Of a DNA stretch of 38,145 nt, positions 12,244 to 15,222 are shown piece by piece. The position numbers were made by a program, and so were the translations under genes. The stretch's first letter is position 1, and each line of letters starts with the position of its first letter. The stretch covers positions 1-38,145 of the forward strand of contig JAFSDL010000014.1 in the NCBI GenBank assembly GCA_017436285.1, read 5' to 3'. Under the pieces are notes generated by a model, which was given only the letters and a program-made list of their open reading frames with translations, was not told the DNA's origin and searched no databases. The stretch is from Clostridia bacterium. GTDB taxonomy: Bacteria; Bacillota; Clostridia; Oscillospirales; Acutalibacteraceae.

Positions 12244-12729
12244 TCAGTCAATATTCGCAATATATTCCCGAACCTGCTGTTTCGTTTTCAAAACAACAGT
12301 TTTATCCTTGTACTTTTCTGCAATTTCAGCATAATAGCTTCGTCTTTCTTTGTTTCTGCAACCGAATAGCGTAAACTTTATAAACCACCAATTCATATCA
12401 TTGTTGTAACCGTCTTGTCTACGGCTCTTTGTCCGTTTAACTGCCCGAAAAAAGCAGGTCATTCTCGGAAGCTGAAGCAAAACTATTTTATCTGCCTTTT
12501 GCAGTCGCTCATCTATCATCAGGTATGTATAGTATCCGTCAATAATCCAATCGTTCTGTGCCATAAACTCTGCAACTTGTGGCAGAACAACTGAATCATC
12601 AATCGATTTCCATTCCTTGTCCCACTTTATATCATCAAGGTGAAGGACGGGGATGTTTTTCTTTTCAGCTATGTAGTCAGACAGATATGTCTTACCGCTT
12701 CCGGCATAGCCTAAAACTGCGATTTTCAT
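12244..12729 (-). CDS. P-loop kinase-like protein (DNA topology modulation/FlaR-like family)
   Basis: The 161-residue protein begins with a Walker A motif, GYAGSGKTYLS (residues 7-17), and continues with LHLDDIKWDKEWK and NDWIIDGYYTY. ADKIVLLQLPRMTCFFRAVKRT follows in the middle. That arrangement is typical of the small adenylate-kinase-fold proteins called topology-modulation or FlaR-like, whose substrate is generally unknown. It is the last gene of the five-gene accessory operon and starts one base after the preceding stop. Phosphorylation of a small molecule or nucleotide is plausible but not shown. Confidence 0.82.
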   Translation of the reverse strand: MKIAVLGYAGSGKTYLSDYIAEKKNIPVLHLDDIKWDKEWKSIDDSVVLPQVAEFMAQNDWIIDGYYTYLMIDERLQKADKIVLLQLPRMTCFFRAVKRTKSRRQDGYNNDMNWWFIKFTLFGCRNKERRSYYAEIAEKYKDKTVVLKTKQQVREYIANID

Positions 12730-12730
12730 T

Positions 12731-13210
12731 TTATAAATTCAACTCCATAAACTCAACTGTAAATGGTAAATGCTCAAATTTGCGTGTTGAAAAGTGGTTA
12801 AAACCGAGTTTCAAATACCAGTCTTTTAACTTTGTGTTTTCTTCAATTATACCGATTGATATTTTATTACCACCATAGCTTTTAACCATTTTAACAGCAT
12901 AATTAACCATTGCTTTGCCGATACCTAAATGACGATAGTCAGGTAATACTGCAAGGTTGTTTAATTCCCATTCGTCATCACTGCACTTTGTAAGAGAAAA
13001 ATATCCAACAGGGATAGTATCTTGATAAAACAGAAACATAGGTCTGCCATCATCGAACTGCTTTTCAAACTTATCAAAACTCATAAATGCAGTATGTGAG
13101 GGACAGTTGCTTTCGGTCAACCAAAACTCCTCCGCAACTGTTATAAAACTGCTACGGATTATTTCAAGACAAATATTCAGTTGTTCTTTCCTTTCAACTT
13201 GAATTATCAT
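12731..13210 (-). CDS. GNAT-family N-acetyltransferase
   Basis: The 159-residue protein has the GNAT layout: a first strand and helix (QLNICLEIIRSSFITVAEEF), then WELNNLAVLPDYRHLGIGKAMVNYAVKMV. The latter holds the acetyl-CoA pyrophosphate-binding R-x-x-G-I-G-K segment. The end is KLKDWYLKLGFNHFSTRKF. Such enzymes move an acetyl group from acetyl-CoA to an amine; the acceptor is not predictable. AAGGTGA lies five bases before the ATG. It is the fourth gene of the accessory operon, nine bases from the methyltransferase. Confidence 0.88.
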   Translation of the reverse strand: MIIQVERKEQLNICLEIIRSSFITVAEEFWLTESNCPSHTAFMSFDKFEKQFDDGRPMFLFYQDTIPVGYFSLTKCSDDEWELNNLAVLPDYRHLGIGKAMVNYAVKMVKSYGGNKISIGIIEENTKLKDWYLKLGFNHFSTRKFEHLPFTVEFMELNL

Positions 13211-13219
13211 AAACTCACC

Positions 13220-13978
13220 TTATTTCACAGCAAGTGTAGCAATATACTGCGGATAGTATTTTCTGATTTCGTTGCCGCCTTCTCCGTCACGGTCTTCATA
13301 TAATGCTTTGAGCACAAATCCAGCCTTGAGCTGACCGCCAATCTGTTCATCTAATGTGTGACTGAACTGCACACCGTCACCGTTTGCAATCATTGTGTCA
13401 CGCTTCTCTTTAGGCATTTTGAGGGGGTTAAAAGGTAACGAATTAACCACTTTTAAAGGCTCGTTTTCTTCAAATAAATAGTTAATTCCGTTATCCATAC
13501 CCGCAAGTAATCTGCCACATTTTTTGAGTATTCGGTAACACTCATTCCAGATATGGCAAACATCTTCAACATAGCAATTTGAAACCGGATGAAAAATCAA
13601 ATCAAAGCTTTCATTTTCAAACGGAAGAGGCTTTGACATATCACCTTTGATGATTGTAATGTTGTATCCTTCTCTTTCGGATACCATTTTTTCTGCTTCA
13701 AGCTGTTTGTCGGAATAATCAAACACAGTACATTCTGCACCGAACTTTGAAAGCACAGGCATCTGCTGACCGCCGCCACTTGCGAGTCCTAACACTTTTT
13801 TGCCTTTCAAATCACCAAACCATTCGTGAGGAACAGTAATACAAGGTGTAAGGTAAACTGCAAAATTATCTGCAGTAGTTTTTTCGTATTCTTCGTGACT
13901 TATAGGCAACGACCATTCACAACCGTCACTTGCCCACGAATCCCAAGTTTCTGAATTTATTTTTGTGTAGTCCATCAT
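13220..13978 (-). CDS. Class I SAM-dependent methyltransferase
   Basis: This 252-residue protein has the S-adenosylmethionine motif I as VLGLASGGGQQMPVLSKFGAECTVFDYSDKQLEAEK. The acidic end of strand 2 is in FDYS, and FENESFDLIFHPVSNCYVEDV forms motif IV with the following helix. CYRILKKCGRLLAG completes the fold. Related proteins methylate small molecules, and some are found with resistance or detoxification genes. The substrate is unknown. Two adjacent ATG codons (13978 and 13975) follow AAGGAA; either could start the protein. The gene is packed tightly between two acetyltransferase genes. Confidence 0.85.
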   Translation of the reverse strand: MMDYTKINSETWDSWASDGCEWSLPISHEEYEKTTADNFAVYLTPCITVPHEWFGDLKGKKVLGLASGGGQQMPVLSKFGAECTVFDYSDKQLEAEKMVSEREGYNITIIKGDMSKPLPFENESFDLIFHPVSNCYVEDVCHIWNECYRILKKCGRLLAGMDNGINYLFEENEPLKVVNSLPFNPLKMPKEKRDTMIANGDGVQFSHTLDEQIGGQLKAGFVLKALYEDRDGEGGNEIRKYYPQYIATLAVK

Positions 13979-13987
13979 TTTGTTTCC

Positions 13988-14548
13988 TTATATAGTTTTT
14001 AAATACTTCTGCATATAAACGATACTCTGATATGTACCATCTTTAAGTTTATATACATTTGGTTTTTCGGACACAATTTCAAAACCGAATTTTTCATAAA
14101 GTGCTTTTGCTCTTTCGTTGCCTTTAGTAAATTCCAGCTCCATAAAATCTATACCACCACGTTCGGTTGCAGCATTTATAAGTTCTTGGAACATAGCAGA
14201 GCCAATTCCCATATTCCAATATTTTTTGCGAAGTGCAATTCCTACTGATGCTCTGTGACAAGTTTTCATACCTGTTTTGAATGTAACATCACATATACCC
14301 GCAATTTCATTATCTACTTTGCAAATCAATACGAATGAATTTTTGGATTCACGAACACCTCTAACCCACTCTGCTTCACCCTCTACACTAACACTTTCCC
14401 ACTCTTCTTTATATCTTACAAGAAACTTAGTTTCACCGCTTACAGTAGCCATTAAACCAACAAGCTCAGCGGCATCTTCAATTTCAGGAGTTTTCAATAT
14501 AGCTTCCACGCCATTTTTCAATATAATTTTCTTTTCTTCAAATATCAT
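13988..14548 (-). CDS. GNAT-family N-acetyltransferase (RimJ/RimL-like)
   Basis: The 186-residue protein carries IAGICDVTFK, then HRASVGIALRKKYWNMGIGSAMFQELINAA, with the acetyl-CoA loop near R-K-K-Y-W-N-M-G-I-G. FMELEFTKGNERAKALYEKFGFEIV is typical of acetyltransferases that modify proteins or drugs. Its ATG overlaps the stop codon of the upstream HExxH gene by four bases (ATGA), which indicates translational coupling. It is unrelated in detail to the second acetyltransferase of the operon, so the two probably have different acceptors. Confidence 0.9.
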   Translation of the reverse strand: MIFEEKKIILKNGVEAILKTPEIEDAAELVGLMATVSGETKFLVRYKEEWESVSVEGEAEWVRGVRESKNSFVLICKVDNEIAGICDVTFKTGMKTCHRASVGIALRKKYWNMGIGSAMFQELINAATERGGIDFMELEFTKGNERAKALYEKFGFEIVSEKPNVYKLKDGTYQSIVYMQKYLKTI

Positions 14549-15024
14549 TTCAACCCACCATTTTCATTTAAAAATAAATCAATTATTCTGTAACGATAAA
14601 AATTAGCCTGCCACTCCGAGCCACGATCTGTTTGTTCAAATTGATTCACCCACTGAAAATAGTGAGTTAATTCGTGGACGAGAGATGACAATATTGCTTC
14701 TAATGCCGTATCTTCACCAACAATTCTCGCTTGTTCTAAATAATCACCTGTTGGTATTCGAATATACGGCTCATCAAAAGTATCGAAATACCTAAAAGAG
14801 CCCCAAGCAATACATCCGTTTTGTAATGTTATTGTTTCGCTTGCTTTAACATAAATCGTAACTCTGATAGGGAAATCATAATTTGCTCGCAACCAGTCGG
14901 TAAATCTCTTAAAAAGGTTTTTCACATCTTCGTGTACATCTTTTTCAAAACGTAAAGATATCCCTTGTCTGACATTTACATCCTTATATATATTCTTATG
15001 TTTTTTTGATTTCCAGGGGTTCAT
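14545..15024 (-). CDS. Putative zinc metalloprotease-like protein (HExxH motif)
   Basis: The 159-residue protein contains HELTH at residues 117-121, and Glu137 in SEWQANFY lies 16 residues later, spaced as a third zinc ligand in gluzincin-type sites. A region rich in beta-strand residues precedes it (FPIRVTIYVKASETITL, YIRIPTGDYLE). It has no signal peptide, so it would work in the cytoplasm. I moved the start to ATG 15024, five bases after AAAGGTG; the longer frame to 15057 would run into the attenuator hairpin. It is the first gene of the accessory operon, right behind the leader-peptide attenuator. The family is not recognised, and a protease role is inferred from the motif only. Confidence 0.75.
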   Translation of the reverse strand: MNPWKSKKHKNIYKDVNVRQGISLRFEKDVHEDVKNLFKRFTDWLRANYDFPIRVTIYVKASETITLQNGCIAWGSFRYFDTFDEPYIRIPTGDYLEQARIVGEDTALEAILSSLVHELTHYFQWVNQFEQTDRGSEWQANFYRYRIIDLFLNENGGLK

Positions 15025-15052
15025 TTCCTCACCTTTCTCAGACAACAAAACA

Positions 15053-15078
15053 GGCACCTCCGAAAATACGGAGATGCC
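15053..15078 (-). terminator. Attenuator terminator in the accessory-operon leader
   Basis: On the minus strand GGCATCTCCG (15078-15069) pairs with CGGAGGTGCC (15062-15053) around a TATTTT loop; one pair is a T-G wobble that works only in this strand's RNA. A U-rich stretch (15052-15042) follows. It lies between the leader peptide and the first structural gene, about 30 bases before ATG 15024. Confidence 0.75.
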
Positions 15079-15105
15079 TCAATTTACCAAAAGATAAAAA
15101 TTATA

Positions 15106-15162
15106 TCAATCGCAAACGGACAAAATGGCTCTCCAATTTCGGAAGTTAAGATTCATTGTCAT
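15106..15162 (-). CDS. Leader peptide of the accessory operon
   Basis: A short frame, too small for routine gene calling, encodes MTMNLNFRNWRAILSVCD (18 residues) and ends at TGA 15108-15106. AGGTGG lies five bases before the ATG. It falls in the leader made from the promoter at 15222-15194. Its first codons lie in an RNA stem: the start codon is the end of GGACAAAATG, which pairs with CATTTTGTCC later in the same frame. The downstream terminator and this overlap suggest that translation of the peptide sets transcription of the operon. It is a prediction from layout, not homology. Confidence 0.6.
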   Translation of the reverse strand: MTMNLNFRNWRAILSVCD

Positions 15163-15169
15163 TTTGTCC
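15118..15169 (-). promoter_or_regulatory. Leader hairpin overlapping the leader-peptide start
   Basis: GGACAAAATG (minus 15169-15160) and CATTTTGTCC (minus 15127-15118) form a perfect 10-bp stem around a 32-base loop. The overlapping segment GGAGAGCC (minus 15134-15127) can instead pair with GGCATCTCC (15078-15070), the 5' arm of the terminator, with a single-base bulge. The two pairings exclude each other, as in attenuation switches. Confidence 0.65.
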
Positions 15170-15193
15170 ACCTGCCTTTCGTTGTTATTCATA

Positions 15194-15222
15194 ATTATAC
15201 TCTTATGCATCAAGAAAGTCAA
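15194..15222 (-). promoter_or_regulatory. Promoter of the accessory operon
   Basis: On the minus strand TTGACT (15222-15217) and a perfect TATAAT (15199-15194) are separated by 17 bases. The start would be near 15187, giving a leader of about 163 bases before ATG 15024. A second candidate, an extended -10 element TGATATAAT (15108-15100), overlaps the end of the leader frame and could give basal expression. Confidence 0.75.

Follow-up and report, generated by a model that had tools for sequence, protein, structure and literature searches.

On the minus strand of the window, by which we mean the whole 38,145-nt stretch of Clostridia DNA that was analysed (contig JAFSDL010000014.1), a five-gene array is preceded by a leader that is probably a ribosome-sensing transcription attenuator, belonging to a portable leader family and switched ON by ribosome arrest at codons 1-3. 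Comparison across copies shows a leader ORF kept in frame, a hairpin (P1) over the leader's Shine-Dalgarno (SD) sequence and AUG, an antiterminator and a terminator that change together, and a promoter-like site at most copies; on these comparative grounds, the identification of an attenuator with a translated leader ORF is well supported. The role of early ribosome arrest as the ON signal is supported by geometry and by the predicted folding of incomplete transcripts, and we may fairly infer that the leader senses drug or ribosome stress.

An earlier note, made from the letters alone, had described a promoter, an 18-codon frame, pairing segments and a terminator, and we find each of them in place (Table 1), the whole element running from promoter to terminator over 15222-15052 (minus). 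The proposed pairing of GGACAAAATG (15169-15160) with CATTTTGTCC (15127-15118) is confirmed as part of a P1 helix longer than was claimed, and the alternative pairing of GGAGAGCC (15134-15127) with GGCATCTCC (15078-15070) likewise holds, with 8 pairs possible around one bulged A. The note had further let GGAGAGCC overlap the second P1 arm; the two do have one base in common (15127), but the segment lies otherwise in the loop, so that the antiterminator is placed in the P1 loop rather than in an arm, and the exclusion of P1 by the antiterminator would be more topological than a matter of shared bases. The terminator's 3' flank, GTTTTGTTGT on the minus strand of the window, is a U-rich tail. RNAfold on 15187-15024, the check that had been proposed, returned a minimum free energy (MFE) of -50.4 kcal/mol. 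The shuffles averaged -35.3 (sd 3.9), which puts the leader at z -3.84, and 1 in 200 was as stable; this nested fold of the free RNA includes P1 and the terminator together. An extended P1 pattern derived from the window site matched once in the window, with no match of any kind in 100 shuffles. Rfam placed no family at gathering score anywhere in the window; below that score the best on the leader strand was ncr1575 (20.7 bits, E 0.94), which we take to be the tlrB (yxjB) leader, and among the elements of eight loci none was placed except for weak ones nearby in locus L030.

Table 1. Leader features and the genes behind them, in window positions
Feature	Position	Strand	Remarks
Promoter	15222-15194	minus	TTGACT-17-TATAAT; sigma-A-type, 11/12 consensus matches
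P1 hairpin	15175-15112	minus	GCAGGTGGACAAAATG / CATTTTGTCCGTTTGC; encloses leader SD (AGGTGG) and start codon
P1 arms	15175-15160 with 15127-15112	minus	16 contiguous pairs, in MFE
Leader ORF	15162-15106	minus	18 codons, MTMNLNFRNWRAILSVCD then stop; own SD AGGTGG
Antiterminator segment	15134-15127	minus	GGAGAGCC; within P1 loop
Intrinsic terminator	15079-15052	minus	11-bp stem AGGCATCTCCG / CGGAGGTGCCT; arms 15079-15069 / 15062-15052; in MFE
Gene 1	14545..15024	minus	159-aa HExxH protein; no Pfam/NCBIfam family
Gene 2	13988..14548	minus	GNAT acetyltransferase; PF00583 E 2.8e-15; homologues in other arrays
Gene 3	13220..13978	minus	class I methyltransferase; PF08241 E 1.7e-16
Gene 4	12731..13210	minus	GNAT acetyltransferase; PF00583 E 3.4e-15
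Gene 5	12244..12729	minus	P-loop kinase-like; NCBIfam 'DNA topology modulation protein', under its cut-off

The leader frame was assessed with a pattern in which both P1 arms were fixed and 18 to 48 bases of any kind could stand between them, so that neither frame nor stop was selected by the search. Once 5 duplicates had been removed, the search gave 92 distinct elements. In 91 of them the P1 arm shares the frame of the ATG, with lengths of 31, 34, 37, 40 and 46, and in 89 a stop stands in frame no more than 6 codons from the arm, the other frames giving 2 and 24 such stops. A wider set came from R2, a covariance model of P1 plus loop in which the loop enters as unpaired columns and which holds neither the terminator nor the antiterminator pairing. 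Of its 184 matches in loci, 127 distinct ones remained once 49 duplicates, 6 that lacked a recognised P1 arm (3 of these being a variant leader) and 2 that lacked an ATG had been set aside, and at least 2 of the 127 are antisense; here the frame is kept in 123 and the stop in 122, against 5 and 28 in other frames, though the loop and tail columns of the model could bias this set to such lengths. The leader ORF of the earlier note is thus borne out by comparison. Across 71 distinct sequences, in an alignment that was fitted to the P1 structure, 97.7% of cells in the 13 core pairs are paired (at most 51% in slid controls), with two-sided changes at 4 pairs.

A terminator was found in 117 of the 127 matches; in 4 of the others a contig end or masked bases cut the element short, 2 are antisense and 4 fall below our criteria. 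Grouped by leader-loop and terminator sequence, the 117 elements form 33 clusters. Loops pair better with their own terminators than with swapped ones (-17.4 versus -10.7 kcal/mol, permutation P = 5e-5) in a duplex test that includes six bases of the terminator 3' arm, and also in a narrower test confined to the terminator 5' half (-11.9 versus -7.9 kcal/mol); native loops outperform base-shuffled ones at p < 0.05 in 29 of 33 clusters and at p < 0.01 in 19. In a 24-sequence alignment, 82% of antiterminator cells are paired, compared with at most 54% when slid. By a simple rule the terminators fall into 51 of the GGCATCT kind, 40 TGATTTTATCA, 9 CTGATTTCA, 6 CTCTGATTTT and 11 other; with four recurrent kinds plus others, the pairing has been kept while the sequence was replaced. 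Antiterminator and terminator thus change together across the family, as the alternative pairing put forward earlier would have it. A further stem, bracketing the terminator and lying over the SD region of gene 1, is significant (p < 0.05) in 14 of 33 clusters (own -12.4 versus -9.3 kcal/mol, permutation P = 5e-5) and is not claimed for the window. Upstream, a promoter-like site (at least 9/12) stands at 106 of the 117 elements, where base-shuffled sequence gives a mean of 16.8.

The position of the ribosome at which the array would be read was approached by folding with bases -15 to +15 of the P site held unpaired. In the main version, with the transcript cut at the terminator 3' arm and the antiterminator scored at 6 or more pairs in the MFE, the antiterminator forms with the ribosome on codon 1 in 33/33 clusters, codon 2 in 33/33 and codon 3 in 32/32, and then fades over codons 4 to 8 (21/32, 10/32, 3/32, 3/32, 0/32); it appears in 8/236 cases over the rest of the mid-leader, in 13/64 for the two that precede the last codon and in 14/32 for the last codon itself. 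Ribosome-free, the cut transcript gives the antiterminator in 8/33 clusters and P1 in 25/33. When six 3'-arm bases are allowed, codons 1-3 give 30/33, 30/33 and 22/32, and the last codon 18/32. With shuffled loops and a ribosome on codon 1, 52% reach at least 6 pairs and 37% at least 8, a baseline that is not low, and the native figure, 33/33 for both, stands well above it; with the six 3'-arm bases the shuffled loops give 31% and 22%, against 30/33 native. Complete leaders at equilibrium lose the terminator at codon 1 in only 8/33 clusters, at codons 2-4 in 0-4 of 32-33, on the last codon in 3/32 and mid-leader in 1/300; given so weak an equilibrium effect, the switch must be kinetic, and our conclusion on ribosome position relies on the cut-transcript folding and not on the complete-leader version. 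The window leader is among those that switch even when complete, the predicted fold preferring the antiterminator when the ribosome sits at codon 1 (the AUG) and once more when it sits at codon 18. The geometry is consistent with an early signal: in 114 of 117 elements the first antiterminator base stands at +13 or beyond, and in 99 of them at +16 or beyond, and the start-codon ribosome of vmlR gives a toeprint 16 nt downstream, at +16 (PMC9226507), which puts the start of the antiterminator at the edge of an AUG-bound ribosome.

The suggestion that a ribosome held early in the leader frees the antiterminator therefore finds support, which comes from this folding with a footprint, but its counterpart, that a ribosome at the stop covers GGAGAGCC and lets the terminator form, is not supported: in 87 of 117 elements the last sense codon comes 14-16 nt after the 3' end of the antiterminator, and a last-codon footprint yields the antiterminator in the window as well as in the clusters counted above. 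Termination would instead be favoured by mid-leader ribosomes, or by ribosome-free RNA with P1 closed. It is conceivable, if unlikely, that the same attenuator is switched at the stop or leader end, by a peptide- or release-dependent arrest of the TnaC kind in which the ribosome would sit over the 3' arm of P1, with the antiterminator left unpaired by it. The last-codon results just given (14/32 clusters, 18/32 with the six 3'-arm bases, and the window) point that way, as do the frequent Asp before the stop and the nearly fixed distance from stop to P1; however, on the shorter transcript the effect is absent in 18/32 clusters, early ribosome positions score higher, the C-terminal LS(A/V) of the peptide is accounted for by the pairing in P1, and its final residues differ between copies (D, K, E, N, A, V and others). 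About equally improbable is a sensor of missing initiation, in which without a ribosome P1 and the antiterminator would form a pseudoknot and the array be read, and translation would displace the antiterminator and bring about termination. Such a pseudoknot is possible with the antiterminator in the P1 loop and one base shared, and the leader SD and AUG lie inside P1 family-wide, but folding restricted to nested structures gives P1 and the terminator in the free RNA, with P1 in 25/33 clusters.

Family ORFs are mostly 15-18 codons long, and we considered the 105 distinct peptides, of 107, with at least 12 residues. All 105 contain LS, followed in most by A or V, a conservation explained by these codons forming the P1 arm; from codon 3 to the antiterminator, there is no residue that they all share. 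We looked in 96 close loop pairs for strong purifying selection on the peptide and found none, the synonymous fraction of 0.257 against 0.202 expected being near neutral, and the peptide, Thr2 apart, thus seems little selected. Codon 2 is Thr in 67 of the 105 peptides (ACA 54, ACT 5, ACG 5, ACC 3), and in 20 of 33 clusters versus 17 of 351 background ORFs, a comparison whose binomial P is only indicative as the clusters are related; leaders of the CTGATTTCA kind have Met or Ile there, not Thr. Chloramphenicol and linezolid arrest is best with a penultimate Ala and less with Ser or Thr (PMC8987054). As a lead, Thr2 would make arrest more likely while codon 3 occupies the P site, a position at which the antiterminator is still free on the shorter transcript. 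IFVI is a macrolide nascent-chain arrest motif, and none of the arrest motifs of such leaders (RLR, RYR, IFVI) is conserved in the 105 peptides. RYR and RLR are leader arrest motifs (PMC6851288 and PMC6310831, respectively).

That the peptide lacks a run of one amino acid, as had been remarked of the window leader, is true also of the 105 family peptides, and it weighs against an amino-acid starvation attenuator. A leader ORF with alternative hairpins and a common Thr2 would suit that reading, which we nonetheless regard as very improbable: no run of regulatory codons like those of amino-acid attenuators occurs in any of the 105 peptides, Thr2 apart there is no shared codon from AUG to antiterminator, and the families met most often downstream are those of acetyltransferases and methyltransferases rather than of biosynthetic enzymes. 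A ligand-binding riboswitch with an incidental ORF is scarcely credible, as the stable, conserved hairpin has a loop that varies in sequence, varies in length by threes and holds no invariant bases, and Rfam gave no match at gathering score and weak ones below it.

The genes behind the leaders were called by a simple script on the 117 elements, 107 of which have a first gene of at least 70 aa. At least 66 of these 107 match Acetyltransf_1, and 6 have GNAT_C/NAT_N domains; there are also 4 histidine phosphatases, 3 methyltransferases and 3 LytTR regulators, together with single or few cases of MFS, ABC transporters, S66 peptidase, P-loop kinase-like proteins, PNP and HAD. Among 94 later genes scanned, out of the 100 of at least 80 aa, 24 match Acetyltransf_1, 17 Methyltransf_11, 6 GrpB and 6 AAA_18, and ten later genes examined singly included APH, NUDIX and S66. 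No ARE ABC-F gene of the kind that follows the vmlR leader was met downstream in the 25 of 60 families listed, the first genes being GNATs and others. Comparison thus supports the resistance-like gene set that the earlier note read behind the leader. One first-gene cluster of ~280 aa, whose representative carries GNAT_C and NAT_N, follows six type-b leaders (L070, L081, L085, L099, L107, L152), and at L129:1630-2251 an array is followed, judging by eye, by two ORFs, a small antitoxin-like one and a PIN-like one.

The five window genes are separated by 1-9 nt or overlap, and homologues of them recur at other leader loci in different order. Those of gene 3 are 80-90% identical in leader loci L108, L095, L068, L134, L125, L117, L136 and L131; those of gene 4 reach 77-85% in arrays L134, L108, L181 and L115; and those of gene 5 are 84% identical in the array of congener G020 and 73% over 83 aa in L077. 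Gene 1 was matched in 3 of 99 genomes, its own, G020 (99%) and G081 (23%); a leucine aminopeptidase in the PDB is a weak match to its product (E 0.074). The array (15268-12244) is flanked by rdgB and rplU. None of its genes stands beside rdgB in congener stretches L007-L020, and as rdgB is followed by other DNA in seven congener stretches, the site looks like one of insertion or rearrangement. Between the array and rplU, a short GGCATCT tandem repeat occupies part of the gap (12145-12115), and a promoter-like site with a structured-looking stretch precedes rplU (12083-11950, no Rfam match at gathering score), perhaps an L21 leader.

The window leader is one of a family whose related elements precede unrelated genes, mostly in uncultured Clostridia. 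The 171-base leader used as a query matched 34 of 398 genomes of the same taxonomic family (E <= 0.001), some with 2 or 3 matches, the weakest being short. In congener G020 a block corresponding to 15193-13997 (the leader, gene 1 and nearly all of gene 2) is 96.8% identical, and the promoter and upstream DNA differ; with the promoter outside the shared block, the two copies have no promoter in common, and in the remainder of the query the kinase gene alone has a match (84%), at another place in the array of G020. A P1-only pattern found 96 stretches in the genome collection and none in viral contigs; uncultured Clostridia (Oscillospiraceae, Clostridiales and others), many of them from animal guts, account for almost all of the 80 titles listed, which also include one labelled Bacilli and one Paenibacillus ginsengarvi. 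The copy of that named isolate (L100:3640-3790) precedes a PF09818 P-loop protein, and there TTTTGTCCACC, downstream of the terminator, could pair with the leader SD too. Plasmid and phage collections gave no match with the window leader as query, nor did plasmids with a type-b leader as query. Of 15 genomes of the genus, 9 have a strong R2 match (E < 1e-10) and 2 more a weak one, and the 7 other genomes scanned alongside them have no strong one; under the stricter filters used for the broader samples, R2 matched 22 of 250 genomes of the taxonomic family at E <= 1e-5, was strong in 5 of the 391 class genomes, the own one among them, and at E <= 1e-4 found in 299 genomes of the phylum the own genome and one weak match. 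The latter (G997, locus L228, E 6.8e-5) is a bare hairpin and was discounted, and class-sample matches at E 3e-4 to 1e-2 were taken as chance. A second, diverged leader of the same design, carrying GGACATAATG with matching changes in the other P1 arm, occurs in the own genome (L178, G000:C23:60861-60940) and in congeners (L189, L190, L195, L198); the genes downstream of it in L190 and L198 match ABC_tran, and the cut gene in L178 starts alike but has no family match. In the open papers searched and in Rfam, including the parts consulted of two structured-RNA surveys (PMC8040213, PMC11109978), we found no description of the leader family.

Copies ahead of unrelated genes, and a G020 copy 97% identical over the leader and nearly the whole of two genes with upstream DNA not shared, might suggest that the end of a mobile or recombining element (attC- or MITE-like) has been mistaken for a regulator, a notion to which we give next to no weight, given that frame, stop, promoter position and antiterminator/terminator co-variation are all kept; as for an integron cassette, the narrow gaps and overlaps between the window genes leave no room for an attC.

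The best reading, by analogy with vmlR of Bacillus subtilis, is that ribosome arrest at or just after the start codon opens the detoxification array. In the OFF state the first ribosome would load before P1 is complete and cross the antiterminator codons; P1 would then close behind it, the terminator form, and P1 block later rounds. In the ON state a ribosome arrested on codons 1-3 would hold P1 open with a footprint ending at or just short of the antiterminator, which would capture the terminator 5' arm before the 3' arm is made, so that RNA polymerase continues into the array. Likely inducers would be compounds that cause arrest at or just after initiation (pleuromutilin-, lincosamide- or tetracycline-like), and possibly, by way of the common Thr2, phenicol- or oxazolidinone-like ones, and the array products (GNATs, methyltransferase, kinase-like protein) would modify small toxic molecules. 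We infer both the antibiotic-like inducers and the resistance function from the gene set and from the parallels with vmlR, toiL, tlrB, bmrB and hflXr.

It is possible, though we hold this only tentatively, that the family constitutes a portable, general switch for a ribosome stuck at the start, placed before interchangeable detoxifying arrays in uncultured gut Clostridia, such that dozens of orphan GNATs, methyltransferases, kinases and exporters would belong to a single inducible resistance regulon that shuffles its genes and has neither transcription factor nor integrase. If so, one RNA signature would mark orphan GNATs and small enzymes that give inducible protection against ribosome-targeting compounds, offering a route to both genes and inducers in gut Clostridia; furthermore, the regulator would travel apart from promoter and genes, and the antiterminator would stay matched to the terminator while both drift to unrelated sequences.

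Several known systems share parts of this design. The 'mobile attenuators' are likewise related attenuators ahead of unrelated genes, but they involve transposable-element terminators, and the section covered describes no conserved leader ORF (PMC2965389). The bmrB leader of bmrCD in B. subtilis (PMC4191407), ahead of drug efflux genes, and Listeria rli80/hflXr (PMC6310831), ahead of a resistance gene, act by ribosome-mediated transcription attenuation, and genes for ABC transporters likewise lie behind the variant leader in congeners; the two known systems differ in being other leaders with single target operons, and rli80 has an RLR motif. The B. subtilis tlrB (yxjB) leader resembles ours in its leader peptide, terminator and hairpin over the gene's SD, but needs the nascent-chain motif RYR together with tylosin (PMC6851288). 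The toiL uORF of the Escherichia coli topAI-yjhQ-yjhP operon reports arrested ribosomes, the start codon included, yet its targets are topAI translation and Rho, with no intrinsic terminator, in a toxin-antitoxin operon (PMC12121999).

Closest is the vmlR leader of B. subtilis with its uORF(MIN), where a leader uORF, a hairpin that needs to stay open and an antiterminator opposed to an intrinsic terminator all find a counterpart, and arrest of an initiating ribosome as the trigger a predicted one; a further hairpin on the gene's own SD is shared too, significant here in the 14 clusters given above (PMC9226507). The uORF of vmlR, however, has 3 codons, far from the usual length in the present family, and precedes one ABC-F gene, whereas the present leader precedes many gene types, the likeness being one of design. 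Compared with vmlR, the present leader has its SD and AUG inside the P1 helix and its antiterminator in the P1 loop, and we met no like arrangement of an antiterminator in the apical loop of a start-codon hairpin in the literature consulted. By this analogy, the present leader would work like the vmlR type, without being filed as a member of it.
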